A stretch of DNA of 20,011 nucleotides from a bacterium (GCA_021160245.1 JAGHCW010000182.1:1-20011); one strand, 5' to 3'. Numbered from the stretch's first letter, positions 2-20,011 are shown. Notes: a model not told the origin generated them from the letters alone. Made by a program: numbers and translations.

Positions 2-3000
2 GACGGTCTCGGTGAAGACAATCGCTACGAGCCGCTTCGAGGCGGACGGCACGGCGGGGCGCTCATCCTCGAGACTGGTGCAGGAGATAGGTTCAGAATC
101 GAGCGTTACGCCTCAAGCAAGTCCAAGTTAATTGGCGATGTGATTGTGCGCGATGCAGGCGGCAATCAGTTTCCGGATAGTCACATTTCCCGGCTACTCG
201 ATTCCGCGACGGAGGACCTCTTCAATAGCGTTTTCGCATTTGGGTTGCATGAGCTTCAGCGTCTCAAGACACTCACAAGCGATGACGTGAAGGGAGTTAT
301 CTACAGCGCGGGCGCCGGAGGGATTGGGACGTCACTGCCCAAGATCTATGCGAATCTCAAGAAGAACATGGAGGGTCTGTTCAAGAAAAGAGGCAGCAGC
401 CCTGAGGTTAACAGGCTTTTGAAGCAGATTGACGAGATCTCAAAACATCTACGTGAGATTCGGGCACAGTCGGGTCGCTACGACGATCTGAAGCGAGAAT
501 ACGATGGAAGCAGCGCCTCGCTTACGGAGCAGGAGGCCAGACGGAAGTCGCTTTCCGCGTCGTTGAGCGATGTTAAGACGAAGCTCGCCGCGTGGGATGA
601 CTGGGTGGGGCTTCAGTCGGCTCGCAAGCGGCTGGATGAATTGCCACCAGTAGATCGATTCCCGAAGGATGGAATCGGCCGGTTCGAGGCCATGAATGGG
701 GAATTAAGAGGCGCAAATGAGGCAAGAGAAGCGCAGCGCATGCAGCGGGCGGAGCTTCAAGAGGAGCTGGACGCCATCGTGGTAAACGAGTCGCTTCTGG
801 CCAATACCGAGGAGATTGAGCGACTCAAACAGAACCGAAAGGAATACGAATCTTCAGTCAGCGATCTGCCGAAAGTCCGAGCTAGCAGAAATTCGAAGGC
901 GGATGATCTGAAGAAGAATCTCGCCGAGCTTGGGCCGAATTGGGATGAGGCGATGCTAATGCGCTTCGACACATCGCTCGCGACGCGTGACGCTTTGCTG
1001 AGGCTTAAGGGGGATATCGATAAGGCGGAGAATTCTCGGAGGATCGCTGGCGAAAAGCTGACGATTGCAAAGGAAGCTCTGCAAAAAGCGGAGGACAGCG
1101 AACAGGCCGCGAAGAGCCAATTCGAGAGGATGCCCGAGCCGGAGTTAAAGGATGAGCAAGAGATAAGAGACCGAATCAAAAGACTGAAGGAGGCCAGAAA
1201 GCCCTGCAATTCGATTCGACGGGCCGAGGATAAGTTGGAGGACGCATCCGCTCGAATAAAGGAACTCGAATCCTCAGCAAAACGCGAGCAGGAGAGGATT
1301 TCCTGGAGTGCAAGTCATCCGAAACTGGCGGCCTTGCTCATATCCATCGTATGTATGGCGGTTGCGCTCGTCATATATCTTGCCTTCGATGGCCCGGGCA
1401 TCTACGCGTGGCCAGTCGTGGGGCTTATTTTCGTCGGGTCCTATTCCACCCTGTACAGGCGGTTTGAAAAGATGAGTAGGGACTTCAAAACGAACCTGGC
1501 ATCGCTGGATTCCAAGAAGAGCGGCCTGCTTGGAATGGAGATGGAGCTTCGCAAAGCGCTTGAAGCTAATGGCTCTAAGCTACGAGATATGCTCTCTTTT
1601 CTGCAGGATAAAGACATCATGCCCGACGAGAGGCGACTCGATGATCTGATGGATGATTTCAGGGACATGCTCATTGAGCTTGAACAATGGAATCGGGCGT
1701 TTGAGGCGAAGGAACGTGCAGCCAAAGAGCGCGAGGCGGCGAAACGTTCTCAGAGTGCCTCATCCAATGCGCTGTCGGAGCGGGAGAGGGATGTTGAGGC
1801 GGCGAAGTCAGCCTGGGTCTCTTGGCTCGAAAATGCAGGCCTCTCGGCGAGTATGTCGCCGAACACCGCAATTGTGATACCAGAGCGCGTGGGCGCGTGC
1901 AGAGGCGTGCTTCAGTCGATCCGTGACCTCGATGAGCGTATATCCAAAATGGAGGAGGTGGGCGAGCGGCATAAGGGCCAGGTTCTGTTCGTTGCCTCGG
2001 CCTGTGGAATAGACAGTTCAGGCGATGTTGACCCGGGGAGAATGTTGGATGCACTTTCAAGGGCGCTCCACGATGCTATAGAGGCTTCCGCCAGGCGAGA
2101 GAGGCTCAAAGATGAGATCGATCGCCTTTCCCGGGAGATCGAGACCGCAAAGGCAAGCATTGGCGGCAGAGAGAAGGAGATCGGCAAGCTCTTCGAGGCG
2201 GGAGGAGCGTCGAACGAGGAGGAATTCCGCGAGCGGGCTGGGATTTATGAAGAGAGGCTTGATCTACTGCAACAGATAAAGGGCGGAGAGAGTGCTCTTC
2301 AGCGCCTCGTGGGACCCCAGCGCGTTCAGCAGCTTGAGAGCTCCCTCGCGGTAGCCGACCCAATCGATCTGAAGGAGAGGGAAAGCGAGCTAAACGACAC
2401 GCTGGAGGGGCTTGAGACCCAACTGAAGGAACTTCGCGAGGAACGAGGCGGCCTGAAAGCGCAGTTTGAGCAGCTTGAACAGGATGAGGAATCTTCCGTC
2501 TTGAGGCTCCGCAAGCAGGAGCTGGTTGCGGAGCTTAAGAATGCTGTCAAGAGATGGGGCGCCTTTTCGATTGCAAGAAGAGTGCTTCAAGAGGCTCAGG
2601 CCATCTATGAGCGCGACCGTCAACCCAATGTGATTCGGGAGGCAAGCCGCCTCTTCAAGAGTATGACGCGGGCCAAGTTTTCGACCATCGTGAAGCCAAT
2701 GGACAGCCAGTCTTTCGAGGTTCGCGACGAGCAGGGGAGAACGCTCCAGGTCGGGCAGCTCAGCCAGGGGACTCGCGAGCAGTTGCTTCTTGCGATTCGG
2801 TTGGGCCTGGTTCGCGATTTTGGGGAGAGGCAGGAGAAGCTGCCGCTTGTCATGGACGATGTGCTTGTGAATTTTGATTACCATCGGGCATGCGCGACGG
2901 GCGAGGCGCTTCACAGCCTGTCCGAGACACACCAAGTCCTGCTTTTCACGTGCCATCAGGAGACGCTCGATCTGATGCTCGATGTCGCCCCGGGCGCACA

Positions 3001-3034
3001 AATCATAAAATTGAGTGACGGCAAGATATTCTGA
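2..3034 (+). CDS. YhaN/Rad50-like SMC-type ATPase with central membrane hairpin (5' partial)
   Basis: The reading frame is open from base 2, so the start codon and the Walker A loop lie outside the window; the GTG at 140 is internal. The visible 1010 residues begin with a Tyr/Gly-rich stretch (GGRHGGALI) typical of the N-terminal lobe of YhaN proteins. Long Glu/Lys/Arg-rich coiled coils follow (about 120-430 and 490-850). They are interrupted by two hydrophobic segments at about residues 440-480 (1315-1446) that form a membrane hairpin. The C-terminal lobe has an ABC signature, LSQGT (from residue 920), a Walker B ending in MDD (about 951-953), and an H-loop in LLFTCHQE. The family consists of membrane-anchored relatives of SbcC/Rad50 and is usually paired with a YhaO-type metallophosphoesterase (Mre11/SbcD-like), which would be expected just upstream. 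A role in DNA end processing or repair is inferred from the family. Family assignment is strong; exact function is not. Confidence 0.88.
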   Translation, partial: DGLGEDNRYEPLRGGRHGGALILETGAGDRFRIERYASSKSKLIGDVIVRDAGGNQFPDSHISRLLDSATEDLFNSVFAFGLHELQRLKTLTSDDVKGVIYSAGAGGIGTSLPKIYANLKKNMEGLFKKRGSSPEVNRLLKQIDEISKHLREIRAQSGRYDDLKREYDGSSASLTEQEARRKSLSASLSDVKTKLAAWDDWVGLQSARKRLDELPPVDRFPKDGIGRFEAMNGELRGANEAREAQRMQRAELQEELDAIVVNESLLANTEEIERLKQNRKEYESSVSDLPKVRASRNSKADDLKKNLAELGPNWDEAMLMRFDTSLATRDALLRLKGDIDKAENSRRIAGEKLTIAKEALQKAEDSEQAAKSQFERMPEPELKDEQEIRDRIKRLKEARKPCNSIRRAEDKLEDASARIKELESSAKREQERISWSASHPKLAALLISIVCMAVALVIYLAFDGPGIYAWPVVGLIFVGSYSTLYRRFEKMSRDFKTNLASLDSKKSGLLGMEMELRKALEANGSKLRDMLSFLQDKDIMPDERRLDDLMDDFRDMLIELEQWNRAFEAKERAAKEREAAKRSQSASSNALSERERDVEAAKSAWVSWLENAGLSASMSPNTAIVIPERVGACRGVLQSIRDLDERISKMEEVGERHKGQVLFVASACGIDSSGDVDPGRMLDALSRALHDAIEASARRERLKDEIDRLSREIETAKASIGGREKEIGKLFEAGGASNEEEFRERAGIYEERLDLLQQIKGGESALQRLVGPQRVQQLESSLAVADPIDLKERESELNDTLEGLETQLKELREERGGLKAQFEQLEQDEESSVLRLRKQELVAELKNAVKRWGAFSIARRVLQEAQAIYERDRQPNVIREASRLFKSMTRAKFSTIVKPMDSQSFEVRDEQGRTLQVGQLSQGTREQLLLAIRLGLVRDFGERQEKLPLVMDDVLVNFDYHRACATGEALHSLSETHQVLLFTCHQETLDLMLDVAPGAQIIKLSDGKIF

Positions 3035-3253: not shown

Positions 3254-4246
3254 ATGCTTTCATTGATTCCGACCCAGGACGGCTGTTTTGAGAGAGTCAG
3301 GCAGTACCTTCTCAAGCTGGGAGAAAAAGACGGCCTGCTTTTTGATCGTGATGCTCGGATTCTCGAGCTCGCGGTGAGTGGCAATTGCAGCATGTTCTCC
3401 ATCGGTCCGACAGGACAGCCGCCTCGGCTAATAGCGAAGGTTGCCCCAATCTTCTCCGACCGTCGCGCGGAACTGGACCGGCGAATCTGGGCGAAGCGCT
3501 TGGTGATGAGGGCTGGCGGAAATGTGCCCAAGGTTGTCATTGCTGATTGCACCTTGAGGACCAAATTGAGGCACGGTTTCAGTGTTCTTGTCATGGAGTG
3601 GATTAAGGGGAAGTCCCTCCTGTATGGGGAGATGACCGCGGGGAAACTTGGGGCATTGGCCGAGTCGCTTGCGTCGGTCAACGCAGTGAGCACGGGCAAT
3701 GGGATTCCCCTTCGTTTGATTCAGCGACGAGTGGCCCGTAAGTGGCTTGCGGATAAGGTTGATTACAGCCTGAAGACCCTAAGTGGTCGTCCTTTCAACC
3801 TTTCGGAAGGCACCTGCGCGGTGGTCCGCAAGCGGATGTTGAGCCTCCTGGACCATATTTTACAGAAGCGAACAACAAATGAGCTTGTTCATGGAGATAT
3901 CAATCCCCAGAATGTGATCCTGAGAGATGATTGCGCATCTTTGGTCGATTTTCAGAAGAGTCGCTTTCTTTTCTTCGACTTAGATATTCATGCCGCGATA
4001 TACCGGTTTTGCCGCACCGAGGAGGAGGTCTCGCTGTTCCTTGAGAGGTATTTTGAGGTTGTGGGCTTCAAGAAACGAGTTGAATTCGAACGTGATGAGT
4101 CCTTCTTTAGGTCATTCGTCTTGCTGCGCTACTCGGCCGATTGCTTTCGGAGGGTTCGGGATGCAAAGGACAGAGACGAGGCGGAGCGAGAACGAGAGAA
4201 GGCCATGAGGTCCTGGGACGCATTCACGCAAGTGGCATCCGGTTGA
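3254..4246 (+). CDS. Aminoglycoside phosphotransferase (APH)/kinase-fold protein
   Basis: This 330-residue protein has the small-molecule kinase fold. A candidate ATP-binding Lys62 sits in IAKVAP, followed by an Arg/Glu-rich helix. The catalytic Brenner-type loop HGDINPQN is at residues 213-220 (Asp215, Asn220), and the metal-binding Asp232 is in LVDFQ. The catalytic residues are therefore intact, and it should be an active phosphotransferase on a sugar, amine or lipid-like substrate. The substrate cannot be read from the sequence. Family members include antibiotic, choline, fructosamine and LPS-core kinases. The ATG has only a short AAAGGT element four bases upstream. It stands alone between the YhaN-like gene and the phage block, with its own candidate promoter. 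A resistance function should not be assumed. Confidence 0.8.
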   Translation: MLSLIPTQDGCFERVRQYLLKLGEKDGLLFDRDARILELAVSGNCSMFSIGPTGQPPRLIAKVAPIFSDRRAELDRRIWAKRLVMRAGGNVPKVVIADCTLRTKLRHGFSVLVMEWIKGKSLLYGEMTAGKLGALAESLASVNAVSTGNGIPLRLIQRRVARKWLADKVDYSLKTLSGRPFNLSEGTCAVVRKRMLSLLDHILQKRTTNELVHGDINPQNVILRDDCASLVDFQKSRFLFFDLDIHAAIYRFCRTEEEVSLFLERYFEVVGFKKRVEFERDESFFRSFVLLRYSADCFRRVRDAKDRDEAEREREKAMRSWDAFTQVASG

Positions 4247-4388: not shown

Positions 4389-4534
4389 CTTCTTTCGGTA
4401 CAACGACGAGTAGGGGATTTCATTGGGAAGCCTCAACTGCTTATGGGTGCACTAGCCCGCATAGAACAGAATCAAAGCAGTATCAGAATAAAAATAGTGT
4501 TTGGTCAAGTTAGACGCAACCGGAGGTGAACCGA

Positions 4535-5938
4535 TTGACCCAGTCTGAATGCCGAGATGCGAGCAGAGAATCCACAGATGAACTGGGGGCATCATCCTGT
4601 CGAGTGGTCTCGGGGGAGAGGATGGCGGGGCTTTCTGAGGTTTCAGAGTACCGTCATTGGTATGAGAATAACGATGTTCGGATTCCACTATATGAGGATA
4701 TGACGACTGCCCAGCTTTCACTGCGGCTTCCGATCTCGCTTGGGATACCGAAGCAGATAATTGACAACTCGGCGGATGCGCTATTCGGGGATGGCCGGTT
4801 TCTGGACGTTCGGATGATCGGGCCGGACGATGCGGAGAGCGCAAGACTTCAGGCGCTTTGGGAGCGGGTCTTCAAGGACAACTCCTTCCGCCAGCGGCTA
4901 TTGACCGACACAATCGACGCGGGGATTTGCGGCGGGATACTCTATTCGGTCAGTTACGATCCATCAGGTCCTCGGGTGTTAAGGGTTCAGTCGATAAGCT
5001 ATGACCAGCTGTGGGACATAGAATTCGATGAGCAGGATTCGACCAGAGTCGTCTCCTACATACTCCAGTGGGAGCAGGTGGAACGGAATGACAGACGGGA
5101 GAATAGGCGCCGCTGGTATCGGGTGCGGATGGATGCGGAGGAAATCACACGCTACCGGGCAGTGCAGCCGCACGTCGAGAGAAGCGATGGCGTCGGTGTC
5201 GAATTTGGGATAGTAAGCCGATCGACGCATGGTCTGGGCATCATCCCGGTCGCCCATTTAGCGAATTCACTTCATCGGATGCAGAGCATTGGGGATTCTG
5301 AGATAGCCCCGCTTGCCCCGATGCTCGACGCCGTCAACCAGATGGTCTCGGACGCCTATTGGCAATCCTATAACGACCAATCGATACTCAAGGCGATCAA
5401 TATAGCCCCGCCGGATGATGACGATATCGAGCAGTCAGTGGTTAGACTTGGCGGCGATCAGATCCACTTTCTGACGGGAAACGATCAGATCAAGCAGGAT
5501 ATCGTTCGAATGAAGCCCGTGGGCATTCCGGATAGTTTCTTCAAGACCCTCAATCTACTCATCGGCCAGATATACAAGACGGCCAGTGAGGCCAACCTCG
5601 ATCCGCTCAAGGCCACAGGCTCGAATATCTCGGGCGTGGCGCTTCGACTGCTCTATGAGCCGCTTGCGAAGAAGACATTTAAGAAACGCATCCATTGGGC
5701 CGGGGGATTTGATGAGCTCGCTCGGATAATTTTTGCCTACGCTAACGCGAAATCCATTGTGCTGGATGAATCTGGGGATTTCGTTCTCGGGGGGCCGAAG
5801 TATCGACTTGAGGACACGGAAGTCCGCTGGGGTTCGCTAGTTCCCGGCGATGATGCAGAGGAACAACGGATTATCTTGGGCGACCTATCCGCCGGCCTGC
5901 TGGGCCTCGAGGAGGCGAGGATCAAACGAGGACTTTAG
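4535..5938 (+). CDS. Phage portal protein (SPP1 gp6-like)
   Basis: Portal proteins form the dodecameric ring at one capsid vertex through which DNA is packaged and ejected. Recognisable parts are the N-terminal helical wing (LRLPISLGIPKQIIDNSADA), the motif around IIPVAHLANSLH, and the helix EIAPLAPMLDAVNQMVSDA. Further on come the stem/crown segment GSNISGVALRLLYEPLAKK and a C-terminal end with WGSLVPGDDAEEQR and GLLGLEEARIKRGL. These are all typical of the SPP1-type portal family, and length (467 residues) is normal. A GTG at 4526 would lengthen it by three residues but overlaps the Shine-Dalgarno GGAGG (4522-4526). The TTG at 4535 is 8 nt after that site and is preferred. An ATG at 4623 after GGGGGAGAGG is a third option. 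No terminase precedes it. Confidence 0.88.
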   Translation: MTQSECRDASRESTDELGASSCRVVSGERMAGLSEVSEYRHWYENNDVRIPLYEDMTTAQLSLRLPISLGIPKQIIDNSADALFGDGRFLDVRMIGPDDAESARLQALWERVFKDNSFRQRLLTDTIDAGICGGILYSVSYDPSGPRVLRVQSISYDQLWDIEFDEQDSTRVVSYILQWEQVERNDRRENRRRWYRVRMDAEEITRYRAVQPHVERSDGVGVEFGIVSRSTHGLGIIPVAHLANSLHRMQSIGDSEIAPLAPMLDAVNQMVSDAYWQSYNDQSILKAINIAPPDDDDIEQSVVRLGGDQIHFLTGNDQIKQDIVRMKPVGIPDSFFKTLNLLIGQIYKTASEANLDPLKATGSNISGVALRLLYEPLAKKTFKKRIHWAGGFDELARIIFAYANAKSIVLDESGDFVLGGPKYRLEDTEVRWGSLVPGDDAEEQRIILGDLSAGLLGLEEARIKRGL

Positions 5939-6029
5939 TGTCCCAATTCCGGCCAGATTATGAATGGGTCTGAGTTGCCGGTACCGCGACGTTTGCTTTG
6001 GATTCAAACATCAGAACAGGGAGAAGAAG

Positions 6030-6521
6030 GTGACGGAAGATATGAATGTTGAGGAAGAGGTTGAGGCAGTATCTGGCGACGATGCTCTTGATGAGGCAAG
6101 GCCCTTGGAGGAAGAGTCCCGGCATGATGCCGACGACAGGCTGGAGCTGCTGCGCCGTGCAGTCTTTGCGGAGGAGTCGCTTGAGCTGTCGCACTATATC
6201 AAGGATAAGGAGATTCTAGGCAGGCTCCGCGATGTCATAACCGGCCAGACGGAGATGGAGCTTAAGCACAAGCTCAATGTGCTGAAGGATGTTTTGGTTC
6301 ACCTAAAGGATGTGGAGAATGATAGCCGGCCCACCGAGGAGGGGTTTGAGCAGATGGTGGCACAGGAGGTTGAGCGAAACTTGGACAGGCTCCACAAGGC
6401 TGCCGAATCGGTTGATGCGGGGATCGTCCAGCCGAGGCGAAATAGTGCCCCGAGTAGCGCAGAGAGCGCCTCTTCTCGTCTGAGTCGCTTGGCGAAGTTG
6501 AGAGGGATATTGCTCAAATAG
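6030..6521 (+). CDS. Acidic scaffold-like protein between portal and capsid genes
   Basis: A 163-residue, highly charged protein, acidic at the N-terminus (EEEVEAVSGDDALDEA), helical in the middle, with a basic C-terminus (RLSRLAKLRGILLK). There are no hydrophobic core domains or catalytic motifs. Its position between portal and decoration/capsid genes, its size and its acidic helix/basic tail layout match phage scaffolding proteins, whose basic tail docks on the coat. This is inference from layout, not homology. An ATG at 5964 is in frame but lacks a ribosome site. GTG at 6030 is 6 nt after GGGAG (6019-6023) and is chosen. No prohead protease residues (Ser-His) are recognisable, so head maturation would have to be protease-free or supplied elsewhere. 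Confidence 0.6.
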   Translation: MTEDMNVEEEVEAVSGDDALDEARPLEEESRHDADDRLELLRRAVFAEESLELSHYIKDKEILGRLRDVITGQTEMELKHKLNVLKDVLVHLKDVENDSRPTEEGFEQMVAQEVERNLDRLHKAAESVDAGIVQPRRNSAPSSAESASSRLSRLAKLRGILLK

Positions 6522-6572
6522 TCTGCGCGAAGAGATTGGAGTCAGCAATCACAAGAGAAGGAGAGACAGAGA

Positions 6573-6995
6573 ATGGCTTGGAAGAACAAGGATGCAAGGG
6601 GTAGTTGGGAAGCAATTGCGGGCGTTGATATCGACGAGAATGAGCTGATGCACATAAGCTCGGATGGGAAGGCTGTACTCGCCGACGCCTCAAGTGGAGT
6701 CGCTCGGGAGGGCCATGGTTTCGCCGCCATGCGGGGTTACGAGACGAATGAGCGTGGAACTCTTGTCAGAACAGGCAAGGTATCTGGTGTAACCGATGAC
6801 TCGGATTCTGCGCTAACTGCAGGGGCCATATATTACCTGAGCGAGACGGCAGGAGGAATCACGGACACAAAACCCACGAGCGACGGAGCGGTCGTTCAGG
6901 TTGTGGGCGTTGCCGCAAGCGCGAGCGAGTTGAATATATCGATTGGCCCGGCCTTTGTCGTTGCAAGCTCGGGGACGTTCCTTAGGGCGCTTTAG
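6573..6995 (+). CDS. Head decoration/structural cement-like protein (DUF2190-like)
   Basis: A 140-residue, Ala/Gly/Ser/Thr-rich, beta-type protein with the run AGAIYYLSETAGGIT, then a Pro-Thr-Ser-Asp-Gly turn, then VVQVVGVAASASEL. This pattern of a short beta barrel with a conserved GxYYL...G.IT...VGVA is usual in phage decoration or cement proteins encoded directly before the major capsid gene. Such proteins sit as trimers on the capsid outside and stabilise it. The ATG is 9 nt after AAGGAG. Placement between scaffold and capsid supports the call; the exact family would need a profile search. Confidence 0.65.
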   Translation: MAWKNKDARGSWEAIAGVDIDENELMHISSDGKAVLADASSGVAREGHGFAAMRGYETNERGTLVRTGKVSGVTDDSDSALTAGAIYYLSETAGGITDTKPTSDGAVVQVVGVAASASELNISIGPAFVVASSGTFLRAL

Positions 6996-7069
6996 GCGAA
7001 TTGAGGCCTCATCTGGAAACAAAGCCGGAAGCTTGGACGGAAATATTCAGAACGAAAGAGAGGTAGGAA

Positions 7070-8131
7070 TTGGCTACTTTTGATACTTACCAGCACCGCG
7101 GCGGCGTTTATGCGGGCGGTGTTCATGGCACTGATACAGACATTGATTGGCGGCAGGTTCTTAAGGACGTCCAGGGCTTAGTCACAGCGTACAATGACCG
7201 GGATGTATCCGGCCTTGCCGACCGTCTTACGCAGAAATCAACAAGCGAGGCTGTGAAGCAGGAGATTAATCGCCTTGTGGCCAAGGAGGTCGCTGAGGGT
7301 CGCGAGCCGGACGTGGATTCAAATAGCGTTTATGAATTCGCGCTCCCAATCAAGGAGTTTGAGGTCTCATTCTCCTTAACGAGAACAGCTCAGAAACGAA
7401 TCGATCCCAGGCGGATAGAGAACCTCTTTGCCAGCGTAATTCAGGCGCACCTTCAACAGCGATTAAAGAACGCGCTGATACCGATATTTTCAACGAACAA
7501 GGCGGGCTCCGAGTGGGGTGGCACTTGGCAGGTGAACACGGATTGCCCAGATTTTGAGGCGAACTCATTCTTCGGCAGCGCACATACCCACGTCTTCACG
7601 AAGACCGCGACGTCTCTTACGCTTGAACACCTTCGTATGCTGGCTGAGGAGATACAGCATCATGGCTTTGGGGCGCCCGGCGTTTACGGCGAGAAGAACC
7701 TGCTTCTGCTGGTGAACATCGCTCAGGCGAACGATCTGATGGCTCAGGCGGACTGGACGGTCCATTCCGGTCTTCCGGATGCCGTCGTCGAAAGGCTGGC
7801 GCTCGATGGGATAAATGCCAATCAGGGCATAAGTGGGTTCATGGTCAATGTTAGCAACATGATCCCCGAGAACTACGTTGTCGCCGTCGCGCTGGATACA
7901 CCCTATCCGGCGGTAACAGCTCGCGTCGAGAGGCAGGAGCAATATCAGGGCTTAGTTCTGGAGACGCCCTTTGAGAACTCGCAGTATCCGTTTAGAGATG
8001 CGGTCTTCACCTTCTCAGAGGGTTGCACGCTGACGCAGCCGAGCGCGGTGGCGGTTCTGATGCTGGGCGCGGATGGCAACAGCACGGATGAGGATATCAG
8101 CGACTACGTGGTTCCTGAGTTCTACTCATGA
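7070..8131 (+). CDS. Major capsid protein (HK97-fold type)
   Basis: The 353-residue protein has the layout of an HK97-fold coat protein. It has an N-terminal helical arm with charged residues (NRLVAKEVAEGREPDVD) and an extended loop (FALPIKEFEVSFSLTRTAQ). A central helix-rich P-domain is followed by the A-domain end, where the protein copy recognises the chain NVSNMIPENYVVAVAL and the final strand DAVFTFSEGCTLTQPSAVAV. No long N-terminal delta domain is obvious. The start is TTG at 7070, just after AGGTAGG. There is no ATG/GTG start nearby, the first internal Met being far downstream, so the TTG start is well supported, though odd for what should be the most abundant virion protein. Assignment rests on fold-like pattern and gene order between decoration and connector genes. 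Confidence 0.78.
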   Translation: MATFDTYQHRGGVYAGGVHGTDTDIDWRQVLKDVQGLVTAYNDRDVSGLADRLTQKSTSEAVKQEINRLVAKEVAEGREPDVDSNSVYEFALPIKEFEVSFSLTRTAQKRIDPRRIENLFASVIQAHLQQRLKNALIPIFSTNKAGSEWGGTWQVNTDCPDFEANSFFGSAHTHVFTKTATSLTLEHLRMLAEEIQHHGFGAPGVYGEKNLLLLVNIAQANDLMAQADWTVHSGLPDAVVERLALDGINANQGISGFMVNVSNMIPENYVVAVALDTPYPAVTARVERQEQYQGLVLETPFENSQYPFRDAVFTFSEGCTLTQPSAVAVLMLGADGNSTDEDISDYVVPEFYS

Positions 8132-8154
8132 CATTCTGATTGGGGAATAGCACA

Positions 8155-8538
8155 ATGATTAGCACTGAATTCAAGACCCGGCTCGAGGCGCTCTTGTCTC
8201 ATCTTGCCAAACATCTTTCGGATGAGCAGATCGACGCTGCAGTCGTCACGGCAAAGGAGATCACGGGCGTCTCATTGCCGACAAGTGATCCTGACAAGAT
8301 CGAGGCGATAATGAATCGTGGCGAATCATTGTGCCTCAAGATGCTCCAGAATGATTGGCTGCCGAGATTCGATTTCAAATACGGCGATGAGTCCCTCTCC
8401 CGTGGAGACGTTTCCAGGACGATAGAGAAGAAGCTGGCCCGATTGGAGAGGAGGTGGGAGAAGCTGTCGGAGCGATACAAGTCCGACTGCGAGCGCAGCA
8501 TAAGCAACGTGGCGGTAAGGACTGCCCATCGCCCATAG
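8155..8538 (+). CDS. Small helical head-tail connector-like protein
   Basis: A 127-residue, mostly helical protein immediately after the capsid gene (23 bp gap). It has an amphipathic N-terminus (FKTRLEALLSHLAKHLSDEQ), a central NDWLPRFDFKYGDESLSRGD, and a C-terminal helix rich in Arg/Lys/Glu. Small helical proteins at this locus in siphoviruses are usually the first adaptor ring below the portal (HK97 gp6/SPP1 gp15 type). This is inferred from position and helix content. A TTG at 8140 is in frame, but GGGG at 8142-8145 points to the ATG at 8155, 9 nt downstream, which is used here. Confidence 0.5.
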   Translation: MISTEFKTRLEALLSHLAKHLSDEQIDAAVVTAKEITGVSLPTSDPDKIEAIMNRGESLCLKMLQNDWLPRFDFKYGDESLSRGDVSRTIEKKLARLERRWEKLSERYKSDCERSISNVAVRTAHRP

Positions 8539-8551
8539 GAGGGAATTCACC

Positions 8552-9259
8552 ATGGCAAAGATCGATCAAGGCCCACTATCAAGATCACAGATGTTCTCCG
8601 ATCTCAAAGGAGCAAGCGAGGACATTCAGCAGCTTCACGGCTGGCAGAAGGCGTCCATTAGGCGGATGATTAAGGCCGAATCACCCGGCGTCGGCTTGCC
8701 GCCTACGGACGCCTACGAAAGCGGTTTGACGGACCTTCCGGTAATCGCCTCGTTCGTCAGATCGAGCACAGAGGAGGGGCCAGTTGCCCCAACTACCTGC
8801 GCCACGATGCAATTTGAGTTCTGGAATGTCGAGGTTACGCCCGGCGACGAGATACTCTTCGGAGGCGAGGTCTTTGTGGTGTGTGACATAACATCGCGCA
8901 GCGAGCGCCTCGTGATGGCAGACGTGCTAGTCCAGAGCGGGGAGACCGTGCTTGAAAAGCAGCAGACTCCTGACGCAGCCGTCGCAGCGATGTGTCTAGT
9001 CTGGAGAAAGCCGCCGGATGCGATATCCCTGAGGCTCAATTATACCGACAATTCGGACGAGGCGCGGGTCTCGGATGAGATCGAATTTGGCGCAGATTGC
9101 AGCGTGGGCGACGTGGTTGTGGTCAGAAGGGACGGGGAGACTGCCGACGTGAAAGACGTAACGGACGTTAACACCTTCTCGGGTGAACTTGGCCTCGGAG
9201 TGATCAAGGTTCTGGACAAGAGTCCGTTCAGATCACAAGTCACCGCCACCAAAGCGTAG
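8552..9259 (+). CDS. Head-closure/stopper-like virion protein
   Basis: A 235-residue protein with an excellent ribosome site (GGAGGG, 8 nt before ATG). The middle (about residues 85-130) has the pattern VTPGDEILFGGEVFVVCDI followed by charged strands. It resembles the small SH3-like barrel of phage stopper proteins, in which a Gly-Asp turn precedes a strand of Tyr/Phe-Val-Val. The N-terminal 70 residues are helical, and the C-terminal 80 are a second beta-rich segment, making it longer than a minimal stopper (about 110-130 residues). Its position after the connector-like gene and before the terminator-like gene agrees. Function is inferred; it could be another neck or baseplate protein. Confidence 0.45.
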   Translation: MAKIDQGPLSRSQMFSDLKGASEDIQQLHGWQKASIRRMIKAESPGVGLPPTDAYESGLTDLPVIASFVRSSTEEGPVAPTTCATMQFEFWNVEVTPGDEILFGGEVFVVCDITSRSERLVMADVLVQSGETVLEKQQTPDAAVAAMCLVWRKPPDAISLRLNYTDNSDEARVSDEIEFGADCSVGDVVVVRRDGETADVKDVTDVNTFSGELGLGVIKVLDKSPFRSQVTATKA

Positions 9260-9301
9260 GACGGGCTTTCCAGCCTGCCCAATGAGTCGAATCTGGGGTC
9301 G

Positions 9302-9365
9302 TGTAGGGGCGGCGCTTGTCTCCGCCCATCTATATATTTGGGCAGACACAAGGCCTGCCCCTACA
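9302..9365. repeat. 26-bp-arm imperfect palindrome, REP/MITE-like
   Basis: The arm at 9303-9327 and the reverse complement of 9340-9364 agree at 20 of 25 positions; the outer T/A pair at 9302/9365 extends the arms. Both arms begin GTAGGGGC on the relevant strand. The 12-base loop ATCTATATATTT is AT-rich. It fills most of the 149-bp gap between two phage-type genes and contains no credible coding start. The nearest in-frame upstream start of the next ORF (9316) falls inside it and is rejected. Confidence 0.75.
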
Positions 9366-9408
9366 TGCAGTATGTCCATGCTTAACCCAGACCATTTGGA
9401 GGACAACT

Positions 9409-9921
9409 ATGACATTGCCAGATTGTGCGAAGCCGCGTAACAAAAGGCTCTCGTTTTATAAGTTTGTAGTCGATAATATCGGTTCGCAGGCGCCAGTTAT
9501 TGTCCAGGGCGCCTCGGACCTCTTCGGTGGCTGGATAGACCCGGGTCAGGTTGACGCTCTCACCGAGTGGGTCGAGCTTATCGTGGACAGCTTCTCCGGC
9601 GGCCTCGATTCCCGAATGCGCGTTAGATTTGTCGTGAATGTCAGGGCGAGGCGCGATGACGATGGCTTTCAGATGAAGCGAATGGACGAGCTACTCTCCG
9701 AGATCATGTCCTTGATGAACATCTCAGGTCAAGAGGTTGCGCCCGTATATGACTACTCGGACCCGACCGACCCGCAGCGGATCGGCGAGCAGCAGGGGCT
9801 CGGCTTTATTCCCAGACACAGACCGGAGAAGGACGGCTTCGTGAATAAAGACGATGGTGACGTGAAGCGCTATGAGCTTCACTACGAATTGTTGCTGTGG
9901 CAGGAGGGGGTCGCGCCATGA
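9409..9921 (+). CDS. Tail-terminator/tail-completion-like protein
   Basis: A 170-residue protein. The ATG at 9409 follows GGAGGA (9398-9403) by 5 nt and is preferred over an upstream start inside the palindrome. It has an N-terminal Arg/Lys/Asn segment, then alternating helices and strands. It ends in ELHYELLLWQE, the strand type commonly seen at the C-terminus of tail-terminator or gp17-like neck proteins. It comes after the stopper-like gene and before the tube-like gene, the normal order for siphovirus head-tail joining genes. Assignment is from order, length and strand pattern only. Its stop codon overlaps an ATG (ATGA, 9918-9921). Confidence 0.45.
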   Translation: MTLPDCAKPRNKRLSFYKFVVDNIGSQAPVIVQGASDLFGGWIDPGQVDALTEWVELIVDSFSGGLDSRMRVRFVVNVRARRDDDGFQMKRMDELLSEIMSLMNISGQEVAPVYDYSDPTDPQRIGEQQGLGFIPRHRPEKDGFVNKDDGDVKRYELHYELLLWQEGVAP

Positions 9922-10032
9922 AGAGCAACACCATCATAGCCTGACACGGCCATCAGCCGATCACCCTCGATCGCAAGGCATAAATAAACACAGTGATCCC
10001 ATTGCGCGAGCAGATATAGGAAGGAGACAGAT

Positions 10033-10893
10033 ATGGGAGGATTTGATCCCACAACGCTACCCGAATTTGGCGTCGATACCGACGAAATAGAGGGAAACGT
10101 CTATCCACAACGCTTCCAACGTCACTACAACACCGAGCTTCTGAGCTATCAGGACGGCTGGGACGTCCAGTTATTCCCACTTGCATTTGAGCAGCGGCTC
10201 GAGGCGACCAAACGCTATGGCGAGAGCTGCCATGGCATCGCGAGCTCCCAAGACTCGGAGCGCAACTCGCTCCATGTGCCGATACGAAGCGCAAAGATGA
10301 CCATAAAGGAGATCGCCTCGGAGCCATTCCTGCGTAGCCTCCACGGAGGTGACGCGCCTCAGCAGGGCCAGCGCCTTCTGTGTTGCGACGGCCTCGTAAT
10401 CAAGGGGGTGAAGGTTGGCGTCTCGATGTTGGGCATGTTCAATACTACCTACTACCCGGACGGCATGAACCCCGCAGGCACGCCGCCTTATGCTCAAGGC
10501 GCCGTCCTGAGCTCTGGCGTGATCTTGAAGCCGGCGGTCGCAAGCTCTCAGGCAGTTGAAGACCTCTTGACTATCGGTATGCCCTTCACGACCGATGTGG
10601 GCGATCTTGGCGCCGATATCAATCCAGTCGTCCGGTCTTTCAGGATTATCAGGGAGATAGACAACTGGGTGACCTTTCAGGCCGACTTTGAGGCGATTAT
10701 TGGCAACGATGAGAACTGGGAAGACGCCACCGGACATCTGCTTCAGCCAAAGCTCATTCTCTCGACCGCGATCACGGTGCTGTCGGACTACTACTTGCTG
10801 GAGCGAAGCATTGAGCTCTTTGCGGATAAAGAGGCGAGGCTGACCGAGGTGGCGACGGTATTTCCGGACGCTGACTACCCAGACGGATTCTGA
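10033..10893 (+). CDS. Phage structural protein, possible tail tube
   Basis: A 286-residue protein with a strong ribosome site (GGAAGGAGA ahead of ATG). Residues 1-60 are acidic and Phe/Tyr-rich, then comes a Gly/Ser/Pro-rich section with TYYPDGMNPAGTPPYAQGAV, and a beta-rich C-terminal half (SFRIIREIDNWVTFQADFEA). The last 60 residues include the helical YYLLERSIELFADKEA. In the usual siphovirus order the gene after the terminator is the tail tube, but I do not recognise a firm family motif. No membrane segment or signal peptide is present. No tape-measure gene follows. Confidence 0.4.
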   Translation: MGGFDPTTLPEFGVDTDEIEGNVYPQRFQRHYNTELLSYQDGWDVQLFPLAFEQRLEATKRYGESCHGIASSQDSERNSLHVPIRSAKMTIKEIASEPFLRSLHGGDAPQQGQRLLCCDGLVIKGVKVGVSMLGMFNTTYYPDGMNPAGTPPYAQGAVLSSGVILKPAVASSQAVEDLLTIGMPFTTDVGDLGADINPVVRSFRIIREIDNWVTFQADFEAIIGNDENWEDATGHLLQPKLILSTAITVLSDYYLLERSIELFADKEARLTEVATVFPDADYPDGF

Positions 10894-10919
10894 TAGCGGA
10901 TTGGCTCACAAGGGAGAGT

Positions 10920-10988
10920 ATCCACGAAGAGCCACCAAGACACACGAAGATGAAAGAGGGCTAAGAACCTTCGTGATTCTTCGTGGAT
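10920..10988. repeat. Imperfect palindrome with CCACGAAG arms
   Basis: The arm 10921-10939 and the reverse complement of 10969-10987 match at 16 of 19 positions, and the outer A/T pair extends the arms by one. The arms contain TCCACGAAGA on both strands, separated by a 29-base centre. It fills the gap between the tube-like gene and the next small gene. It is unrelated in sequence to the palindrome at 9302-9365. Confidence 0.7.
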
Positions 10989-11016
10989 CCCATTCTTATG
11001 TCAACGGAGAGAACTG

Positions 11017-11349
11017 ATGTCACAGACCAAGCACGGCAGCGGGCCGTATTTCAAGGTCGCAAGGCCCATCGTCGTCCTTCCGCGGGACCAATCGGTTCCG
11101 ACGCTGGACGGGGGCCAGGCAAAACAGCGGCTCGGTTACAGACACATCAAGACGATTCTTCTATTCCACATTCTTCACGATGATCTGCAGGACGAGATAG
11201 ATGGCGAGTTCGGTGCCGGTTCCGACTATTCACTCGACAAACAACGAGAGGTCCGCGTGGCCATTGAGGACGAGCTGGAGCTTTACGATGTTGTTCTCGA
11301 GGGGTACAAGTTCAGCCCGAATGCCGCGCCCGATAGCCGATACGAATGA
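11017..11349 (+). CDS. Unknown 110-residue protein of the phage block
   Basis: A 110-residue protein whose ATG follows GGAG (11006-11009) by 7 nt. It has a basic N-terminus, a mixed middle segment (RLGYRHIKTILLFHILHDDL) and an acidic Glu/Asp-rich C-terminus. The location just after the tube-like gene is where tail-assembly chaperones sit, but there is no slippery sequence I can defend and no second frameshift product. The function is therefore left open. It is the last phage-type gene before the palindrome at 11372. Confidence 0.5.
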   Translation: MSQTKHGSGPYFKVARPIVVLPRDQSVPTLDGGQAKQRLGYRHIKTILLFHILHDDLQDEIDGEFGAGSDYSLDKQREVRVAIEDELELYDVVLEGYKFSPNAAPDSRYE

Positions 11350-11481: not shown

Positions 11482-12204
11482 ATGCCGAGCAATGCCAATC
11501 ATAATCAGCCCATATCCACGATGAAGGTGTACTTCGCGGGCGTTGACAGCAACCTGCTGGATACCGTCTTCAATAAGGCAAACGTCCTCTTCTCATTCGC
11601 TCGCCTGAGCCGAAATTGGGCTTCCGCGCGGGGTCATAGAAAGGTGGGCTCAATCATGCTCGATTCAGGCGCCTTCTCGGCCTTCCGCGCGGGAAGGCGG
11701 ATTGAGCTCAGCGCATACTGTGAGTTTCTGGAGCGAAACCTCGACCGCATCGACATCTATGTGAATCTCGATGTGATTGGCAACGCTGAGGCAAGCATGA
11801 ATAATCTGCGGCTGATGGAGCAGCGCGGCCTCTCGCCAATGCCCGTCTTTCATCATGGCGAGGATTTGGACATACTACGCAGATTGCGCGACAATTACCT
11901 CCTAATCGGTCTCGGCGGAATGGTTCCCCGATCGAGGAGGCGCATGTTCGATTGGCTGTCCGTTGTCTTTGAGAAGTTTCCCCACCGGTATCACGGCTTT
12001 GGCATCGGCGATGTCTCGCTCATTCAGGCCTTTCCATTCCACTCAATTGACAACACGACTTGGAAGCGCATCGCCCAAACGCCCGTGCTCAAAACGAGAA
12101 CGAATACCGGCGTTAACTGGGCCGAGCGACTCACTCGCAAAGAGCTCTTCTCAATAAGCCGCAAGTTCTATGAGCGACTCTGCGAGCAAATCGAGCCCAT
12201 GTAA
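11482..12204 (+). CDS. DpdA/TGT-like guanine base-exchange enzyme
   Basis: A 240-residue protein of the tRNA-guanine transglycosylase superfamily. The LDSGAF motif (60-65) is the counterpart of the TGT S-G-G-F loop with its conserved Asp. NLDVIG, FHHGED and the Gly-rich GLGGMVPRSRRR follow. FHSIDNTTW (187-194) places Asp190 at the position of the nucleophile in TGT. Phage-type relatives of this length belong to the DpdA group, which swaps guanine in DNA for 7-deazaguanine derivatives such as preQ0. The exact substrate, DNA or tRNA, cannot be read here. ATG 11482 has GGGAG only 3 nt away; an ATG at 11521 (MKVYFAG) is a realistic alternative. No preQ0 synthesis genes (QueC/D/E, FolE) are present nearby. 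Confidence 0.72.
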   Translation: MPSNANHNQPISTMKVYFAGVDSNLLDTVFNKANVLFSFARLSRNWASARGHRKVGSIMLDSGAFSAFRAGRRIELSAYCEFLERNLDRIDIYVNLDVIGNAEASMNNLRLMEQRGLSPMPVFHHGEDLDILRRLRDNYLLIGLGGMVPRSRRRMFDWLSVVFEKFPHRYHGFGIGDVSLIQAFPFHSIDNTTWKRIAQTPVLKTRTNTGVNWAERLTRKELFSISRKFYERLCEQIEPM

Positions 12205-19014: not shown

Positions 19015-19251
19015 ATGCAGAAGATCAAGTATAGTTCAGATGTCGATGCCCTGATGGTTGAGATATCAGAAAGACCAATAGACCACGCGGAGCAGACGGG
19101 ACAATTCATAACGCATTTCGGAGAAGACGGCGACGTTGTCCTGATTGAAATACTCAACGCGCAGAAGTTCTTGCTTCAGTCGATATCCAGCGTTATGAAG
19201 CAAGCTGAAACCGCAAAGGAACCCGGGTCTGATAAGCGGATGAAAGAATGA
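19015..19251 (+). CDS. DUF2283 family small protein
   Basis: A 78-residue protein with the DUF2283 pattern: Tyr-Ser-x-x-Val-Asp-Ala-Leu near the N-terminus, an Ile-rich strand, then DGDVVLIEILNAQKFLL. The function of the family is unknown. CAGGAG lies ahead of the ATG. Its stop overlaps the start of the AAA ATPase gene (ATGA, 19248-19251), so the two are translationally coupled. Small proteins upstream of an ATPase are sometimes regulators or partners, but nothing in this sequence shows that directly. Confidence 0.75.
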   Translation: MQKIKYSSDVDALMVEISERPIDHAEQTGQFITHFGEDGDVVLIEILNAQKFLLQSISSVMKQAETAKEPGSDKRMKE

Positions 19252-20011
19252 TCAAGCGAATAAAGATTGAGGGCTACAAATCCTTCAAGAGCCTCGACCT
19301 GAAACTCTCGCCCGTGTCCGTCATCTTCGGCCCCAACGCCTCTGGCAAGAGCAACCTGCTGGACGCTATCCAACTGCTCTCCAGAATGGCGACATGCAAG
19401 ACGCTGGGCGAGGCGTTTGATGGGCATCGGGGGCTAGCCAAGGAGAGCTTTCACTACGTTGTTCATATTGATCACGACGAGAAACCTATTGCGATGACAT
19501 TCGAGGTGGATGTTGAAATCTCAGAGGCAGTTGTCGATAAGATCAACAGAGTGATAAGCGAGAAGAGAAAAGGGATCGATTCTGCTGAATCGCCGAAGCT
19601 ATATGTAAGAGAGAAATTCTTACGCTATGGTATTACTCTGGAGAGGCTTCCTGAGACCGGTCATCTCCGGGTAATGAATGAAAAACTCGCCGCGTTGACC
19701 AAGAATGGAGAACAGACGGCTAGGCGGAGGCCGTTTCTTGAGCGCCAGGATGATGGTCCCAAGCGACGTATTCATCTAAGGATGGAGGGGCAAGGTCATC
19801 CCATCTATCAGCAGGTTGGTCTGGACCATACAATCATATCGACGCCGCTGTATGAGCCGCATTATCCGCACATCGCGGCCTTTCGGGAAGAGCTGTCGCG
19901 TTGGAAGACTTACTATCTCGAGCCAAAGACACTGATGAGGGCGGAGGAACCGATCTCGCCGGTGCAGGAAGTCGGACCCAGGGGGCAGAACCTCGCAGCA
20001 TTTCTCAACAA
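19248..20011 (+). CDS. AAA ATPase, OLD/RecF-like, 3' partial
   Basis: The ORF begins at the ATG overlapping the DUF2283 stop and runs off the window end after 254 codons. The N-terminus is MIKRIKIEGYKSFKSLDLKL, the usual beta-strand start of SMC-like or RecF/OLD ATPases. A Walker A FGPNASGKSN follows, then LLDAIQLLSRM. The middle 150 residues are charged and less conserved. Walker B, signature and any TOPRIM or HNH domain would be downstream. Such ATPases occur in repair and in anti-phage systems, but the decisive partner domain is out of view. Close coupling to DUF2283 suggests a two-gene unit. Confidence 0.8.
   Translation, partial: MIKRIKIEGYKSFKSLDLKLSPVSVIFGPNASGKSNLLDAIQLLSRMATCKTLGEAFDGHRGLAKESFHYVVHIDHDEKPIAMTFEVDVEISEAVVDKINRVISEKRKGIDSAESPKLYVREKFLRYGITLERLPETGHLRVMNEKLAALTKNGEQTARRRPFLERQDDGPKRRIHLRMEGQGHPIYQQVGLDHTIISTPLYEPHYPHIAAFREELSRWKTYYLEPKTLMRAEEPISPVQEVGPRGQNLAAFLN

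Follow-up and report, generated by a model that had tools for sequence, protein, structure and literature searches.

Under the viriform definition of the International Committee on Taxonomy of Viruses (ICTV), gene transfer agents (GTAs) are caudoviricete-derived particles with mostly vertical inheritance and an endogenised genome that is often spread over several loci (PMC9662315). They package mostly random host DNA, their own genome is not fully packageable, and the DNA is delivered to other cells (PMC9662315). BhGTA of Brachyspira has a single conserved gene for the large terminase (terL) outside its structural cluster, shows no synteny across species and co-diversifies with its hosts, and RcGTA occupies five loci in R. 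capsulatus, with TerL as gene g2 and the capsid as gene g5 (PMC9662315). The subject of this analysis is a 20,011-base stretch of bacterial DNA (GCA_021160245.1, JAGHCW010000182.1:1-20011; the window) that carries a head-and-neck gene cassette. This cassette probably encodes the structural part of a GTA-like particle that derives from a phage and is inherited vertically in Candidatus Coatesbacteria.

The element is best read as previously unrecognised, dispersed, and unusual in having a DpdA-type transglycosylase within its structural operon. BhGTA, also called VSH-1 (Brachygtaviriformidae), has the closest described layout, the comparison being one of layout and not of sequence. BhGTA particles are produced, hold about 7.5 kb of host DNA and come with an endolysin, whereas the Coatesbacteria element is known from genes alone and should be called GTA-like, not a GTA; the DpdA-like gene is a further difference, being a feature of the Coatesbacteria cassette. 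RcGTA (Rhodogtaviriformidae) is likewise phage-derived and vertical, with genes over several loci. Its terL lies beside the capsid gene in the main cluster, whereas the Coatesbacteria terL has a locus of its own and the portal belongs to the SPP1 type. Recognised GTA families stem from few lineages, and a truly GTA-like set in this candidate phylum, known from metagenomes, would represent a further, probably independent domestication and a possible gene-exchange route in uncultured bacteria. To our knowledge, this is the first GTA-like operon with a built-in DNA-guanine modification gene.

Conservation of the cassette and its unlinked terminase

The window is the whole of contig C129 of a metagenome-assembled genome (MAG) of 3.43 Mb (244 contigs, 94.8% complete, 1.8% contamination); it cannot be extended, and absences in its flanks are bounded by the contig. 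The phylum sample consists of this genome (G000) and three others (G001, G002 and G003), which together represent one family and three genera, G001 and G002 belonging to one genus (g2). Public records of related genomes are titled Candidatus Coatesbacteria.

Positions 4526-11349 of the window hold nine co-oriented open frames in siphovirus order. When all window genes are used as tblastn queries, ten genes, from portal to DpdA, are found in identical order in all four genomes. Genes that flank this set, the kinase and the glycosyltransferase among them, are not common to the four, and the sole other matches are weak ones, between the N-terminal domain of an FGE-type gene and repeat proteins in G003. 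A preliminary description of the window had taken the kinase and the DpdA-like gene as the cassette's flanks; the kinase does lie outside, but the DpdA-like gene is a conserved tenth member. In G003 the cassette is bordered by a 2046-residue repeat protein on one side and downstream host-type genes on the other, and in G002 by pyrE-like/permease genes and a DUF262-like gene. This placement between differing flanks indicates that the cassette ends are real and no accident of assembly. The G001 cassette contig spans only 8.3 kb, with little flank visible. Cassette GC content (0.53-0.57) is similar to that of its flanks. A capsid query retrieves a single copy from each of the four genomes, and 382 other genomes from across the domain give no match to the capsid profile.

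No terminase, tape measure or integrase is recognised inside the 20,011-base contig, and the lack of a packaging motor noted in the preliminary description is correct at that scale but not genome-wide. Each of the four genomes encodes one phrog_2 large terminase (TerL) of about 650 residues, always off the cassette's contig. Annotated terminases of Streptomyces and Gordonia phages align with 90-95% of the length of the G000 protein (E=4e-34, about 25% identity). Its Walker A (GKDSGKS), Walker B (IIDEAS) and SSP coupling motifs and its nuclease aspartates, assigned the roles usual for TerL, are invariant in all four genomes. A conserved gene of 155-182 residues precedes terL in every genome, at the position of a small terminase (TerS), and an open reading frame (ORF) of about 58 residues follows it. 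The terL blocks sit among host genes, with flanks that vary between genera; those of G001 and G002 both adjoin a similar large membrane protein, and that of G002 lies within a 74-kb contig of host genes. The suggestion that the rest of a prophage lies elsewhere is thus correct for the packaging motor, but the terL locus is no prophage; it is a short conserved block with host genes around it. Judged by sequence, a second phrog_2 match in G000 (E about 1e-4) is a RecD2-like helicase, and a further one in G002 looks like its ortholog. The terminase profile PF04466 has no match in G000. A search based on capsid clusters alone can overlook an unlinked terminase of this kind.

Purifying selection acts on every cassette gene that was tested, with omega (dN/dS) between 0.06 and 0.23 by NG86 counting on the G001-G002 pair only, for which dS is about 0.4 and unsaturated. 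With genes numbered as in Table 1, omega is 0.06 for the major capsid protein (MCP), 0.09 for g10, 0.10 for g9, 0.13 for TerL, 0.14 for DpdA, g6 and g8, 0.15-0.16 for the decoration and scaffold genes and 0.23 for g7. The gene at the TerS position reaches 0.35, but it overlaps terL. The portal is unscored because of a frameshift in G002. A dN/dS comparison of capsid and portal had been proposed in the preliminary description, and the capsid value points to purifying selection.

Between G000 and the other genera, identity is 86-88% for MCP, 74-75% for g9, 68-69% for TerL, 67-69% for the portal, 61-70% for DpdA and 42-45% for g7. The same comparison gives 76-80% for RecA, 77-79% for an RmlA-like enzyme and 60-62% for MlaD. 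The capsid is 82-88% identical across genera, and within the genus element genes and core genes both fall at 79-94%. The element's divergence is thus close to that of RecA and the rest of the core genes, and its inheritance looks vertical. Pairwise divergence agrees with core genes and with genus structure, four genomes being too few for tree congruence, and the pattern is suggestive of vertical inheritance of cassette and terL. The preliminary idea of a domesticated particle is well supported by the presence of the cassette in four of four genomes, purifying selection and housekeeping-like divergence. Both loci occur in every genome examined, intact except for one portal frameshift. A retained head operon, an unlinked but intact and co-conserved terminase and the lack of a recognisable phage genome together make a GTA-like element the best reading.

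Nature of the element and competing explanations

Two features of the ICTV definition can be recognised. The portal, MCP and TerL match caudoviricete families, and particle formation is predicted from these genes. The genome is endogenised: the cassette occupies one locus and the terL block another, each surrounded by host genes, and such dispersal would make packaging of the whole of its own genome implausible. In an ordinary prophage the genes for structure, packaging, integration and replication adjoin one another; in Coatesbacteria TerL lies apart and the G003 cassette has host-type flanks.

In a GTA-like element of this type, a host signal, through the sigma-like gene of the terL block or another regulator, would turn on both loci. 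The portal, scaffold and capsid would build a procapsid, which the unlinked terminase would fill; with no phage genome remaining to be packaged, the DNA would most likely come from the host. The connector, stopper, terminator and tube would then finish the particle. DpdA may swap guanines for preQ0, host QueC being present, and this could protect the DNA against the restriction systems of a recipient. The tape measure, tail tip and lysis genes would be very divergent or located at further loci. A bolder proposal, that the element is an independent GTA lineage in an uncultivated phylum and that the operon's 7-deazaguanine enzyme marks or protects transferred host DNA before it reaches the recipient, is doubtful at present.

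Several points weigh against a GTA-like element. Particles, packaging and transfer are predictions from its genes. Profiles for the tape measure (PF10145, phrog_305) and the distal tail (phrog_33) give no true match in the four genomes, three profiles only having been used; tape measures diverge fast, and three profiles are a weak test. The PF10145 match in G003 is a chemotaxis-receptor coiled coil, and phrog_305 matches in three genomes are MlaD/MCE-type proteins, with an MsbA-like transporter beside them in the two loci read. The gene before terL (about 160 residues) has no helix-turn-helix or TerS-family match in the two of four proteins scanned, and the tail-gene identities of g8-g10 are positional. 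All four genomes are MAGs from a single family, and cross-genus dS is saturated, so that omega depends on one pair. Relative to G001, one base is missing from the G002 portal gene (L011 3223), through either a real loss in the strain or an assembly error.

A domesticated particle with another cargo or role, such as protein delivery, a toxin-like particle or a storage compartment, would be consistent with the positional tail parts and with the failure of three profiles to find a tape measure or tail tip. It is nevertheless unlikely: every genome co-conserves a TerL of full length whose ATPase and nuclease motifs are intact, the portal is retained and one cassette gene probably encodes an enzyme that acts on DNA, and retention of TerL, portal and DpdA is expected if DNA is packaged. 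The flanks differ in every genome, as they might if the cassette were mobile, changing sites with the aid of a helper phage; a helper-dependent satellite was an option raised in the preliminary description. However, ordinary rearrangement also gives differing flanks, and BhGTA genes are likewise without synteny. No integrase, att-like direct repeats or tRNA was recognised at the cassette ends, no integrase was seen in the window, each genome has a single copy, and no mobile relatives were found. The cassette has diverged much as core genes have, TerL follows it from a second site, and the genomes contain no other terminase of its family that could serve as a helper. These observations leave a satellite quite improbable.

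Two further explanations are very improbable. Decay of an ancient prophage would account for the frameshifted G002 portal and for the lack of a visible tape measure, tip, replication genes or lysis genes, no search aimed at the last having been made, but the ten genes are intact and in order in the other genomes, omega is 0.06-0.23 and the capsid retains 82-88% identity across genera. Decay at saturated synonymous divergence would have erased such conservation, which contradicts a remnant. An ordinary prophage or lytic phage fragmented by assembly or binning would fit a window that is a whole short contig. Against this, the G003 cassette lies between host-type genes, the G002 terL block is embedded in its 74-kb host contig, and four separate MAGs agree. 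IMG/VR searches with capsid, portal and TerL give no close relative and one distant capsid at 24%, and no close relative appears among phage records. No paper naming both Coatesbacteria and gene transfer agents was found.

Gene assignments, the DpdA-like enzyme and regulatory candidates

Table 1. Positions of the cassette genes, the upstream element and the sigma-like gene (window coordinates unless a locus is named)
Feature	Position	Strand	Basis or remark
Conserved upstream element YCAACTGCTTAYG (TCAACTGCTTATG in window)	4433..4445	+	~80 b 5' of portal start
Portal protein (SPP1 gp6-like), 470 aa, GTG start	4526..5938	+	PF05133, phrog_64
Scaffold-like acidic protein, 185 aa	5964..6521	+	lies after portal, before decoration/capsid
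Head decoration / minor capsid-like protein, 140 aa	6573..6995	+	phrog_4368, phrog_122; Huwbert-like position
Major capsid protein, 353 aa, TTG start	7070..8131	+	phrog_3990, hhalign
Probable head-tail connector (g6), ~128 aa	8152..8538 (listed frame from 8140)	+	position only
Probable head-tail stopper with extra C-terminal beta domain (g7), 235 aa	8552..9259	+	weak hhalign
Probable tail terminator (g8), 170 aa	9409..9921 (listed frame from 9316)	+	position
Probable major tail (tube) protein (g9), 286 aa	10033..10893	+	position, length
Conserved protein at tail-assembly-chaperone position (g10), 110 aa	11017..11349	+	position only
DpdA-like DNA-guanine transglycosylase, cassette gene ten	11521..12204 (listed frame from 11482)	+	phrog_887
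Sigma-region-4 protein, 137-138 aa	L019 12610-13026; L020 8629-9042; L021 1333-1746		N-terminal cysteine-rich stretch

The head-and-neck gene order with open frames, as initially described, is confirmed by the nine co-oriented frames, the portal and MCP profile matches and a Huwbert-like order. Microbacterium phage Huwbert has the order portal-scaffold-minor capsid-MCP-...-stopper-...-terminator-...-major tail protein-...-tape measure, with more small genes between than in the cassette. The actinophages Huwbert, Ajin and DrLupo have their genes arranged as in the cassette, from the portal through to the major tail protein, their MCPs are related to the cassette MCP over its length, and the DrLupo TerL belongs to the same PHROG family. 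They differ in being phage genomes of 57-70 kb with contiguous terminase, tape measure and tail genes, and their MCPs are only 24-28% identical to that of the cassette. The absence of a protease, also noted at the outset, is true but unremarkable. SPP1-type phages assemble without one, and in Huwbert, whose capsid is related, the stretch read encodes a scaffolding protein and carries no protease annotation.

The individual role labels given earlier differ in strength. Those of portal and MCP are secure from profile matches: the portal matches PF05133 (SPP1_portal, E=5e-19, above cut-off) and phrog_64 (E=1e-18), with 65-74% amino acid identity over its segments in relatives by tblastn, and MCP matches the major head protein family phrog_3990 (E=1e-24) and actinophage MCPs by hhalign (97.8% probability, E=8e-13, 303 columns). 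The decoration label is weaker. That protein matches phrog_4368, of unknown function (E=2e-10), and the head decoration family phrog_122 (E=0.019), and is 73-76% identical in relatives. Stopper identity is weakly suggested for g7 by an hhalign match (E=0.015) to stopper-position genes of Huwbert, Ajin and DrLupo, with a common segment GDEI..G..Y.V. Its AlphaFold2 model is beta-rich (pLDDT 69), a fold comparison gave no convincing structural match, and it is the least conserved cassette gene (44-46% in relatives by tblastn).

The scaffold, connector, terminator, tube and chaperone-position roles are assigned by gene order only. The scaffold-like protein has a single phrog_1052 head assembly match (E=0.045) and no significant hhalign match to phage scaffolds, and is 46-58% conserved among relatives. 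No significant hhalign match was obtained for g6 (53-57% conserved), g8, g9 or g10. Gene g8 has a conserved ATG at 9409, its counterparts in relatives start at MTLPD, and identity is 67-73%. The length of g9 is close to that of the DrLupo major tail protein (281 residues), and it is 74-75% identical in relatives; it has no match in PHROG, Pfam or PDB profile searches, and its AlphaFold2 model from four sequences is unusable (pLDDT 33). Gene g10 is 82-85% identical across genera, with no phage match. PDB profile searches with g9, TerL, MCP and DpdA gave nothing usable.

The DpdA-like protein matches phrog_887 (E=1e-42) and resembles phage DpdA proteins at 32-39% identity, some of which are annotated as 7-deazaguanosine inserting enzymes; tblastn gives 33% identity to genes so annotated and 39% to a Sulfitobacter phage (E=2e-31). 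The gene occupies the same cassette place in all four genomes at 62-72% identity by tblastn. Its MLDSGAFSA and SIDNT.W motifs are invariant in these genomes and fit the TGT-like DSG.F motif and second aspartate, which we take to have the roles generally known for TGT. The cassette gene differs from its phage counterparts in sitting inside a domesticated head operon, and its activity is predicted, with DNA or tRNA as substrate. QueC is present in all four genomes, making DNA modification by the cassette DpdA possible. Phages with dpdA but without preQ0 genes are a described group (PMC6884629).

Assignment of the gene before terL as TerS is positional. A TerS without a detectable DNA-binding domain, adjoining TerL, is of the GTA type (PMC11841831). 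The sigma-region-4 protein (PF08281, E=5e-11) is found in the terL block of three genomes, wherever the contig continues, and is a candidate regulator of the element.

A genome-wide search finds YCAACTGCTTAYG exactly once per genome in four of four, on the cassette strand and 5' of the portal gene, so that this search for further operons returned only the portal site in each. The element may serve the operon as an operator or activator site. In all four genomes (L019, L020, L021, L022), AACCGCGTAC and AAAACGAGAATC-like elements are kept 5' of the gene that precedes terL and are probable regulatory sites. No common motif joining the two loci was seen in their upstream sequences.

Neighbouring genes

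Near the terL block of G000 only, a 792-residue DnaB-like helicase with a primase-like N-terminus is encoded (L019 7282-9660, minus strand). The G002 cassette is directly followed by a DUF262-type protein (L011 10560-12659, minus strand) that resembles dnd-associated Orf5 and HEC-06 (E to 5e-177). Just 5' of the window's cassette lies an APH-like phosphotransferase (3254-4246, plus strand; PF01636, E=1e-9), the kinase of the preliminary description, which is absent from the relatives' flanks. Further upstream, a YhaN/SMC-like coiled-coil ATPase (AAA_27; 2-3034, plus strand), with its 5' end cut by the contig, has weak PADLOC matches to JetC and LmuB. At the other end of the window, an AAA_15/OLD-type ATPase (19248-20009, plus strand) is cut by the contig end and has HEC-01A as its best PADLOC match (E=1e-34). 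It is preceded by a 78-residue ORF at 19015, with which it may form a defence pair.

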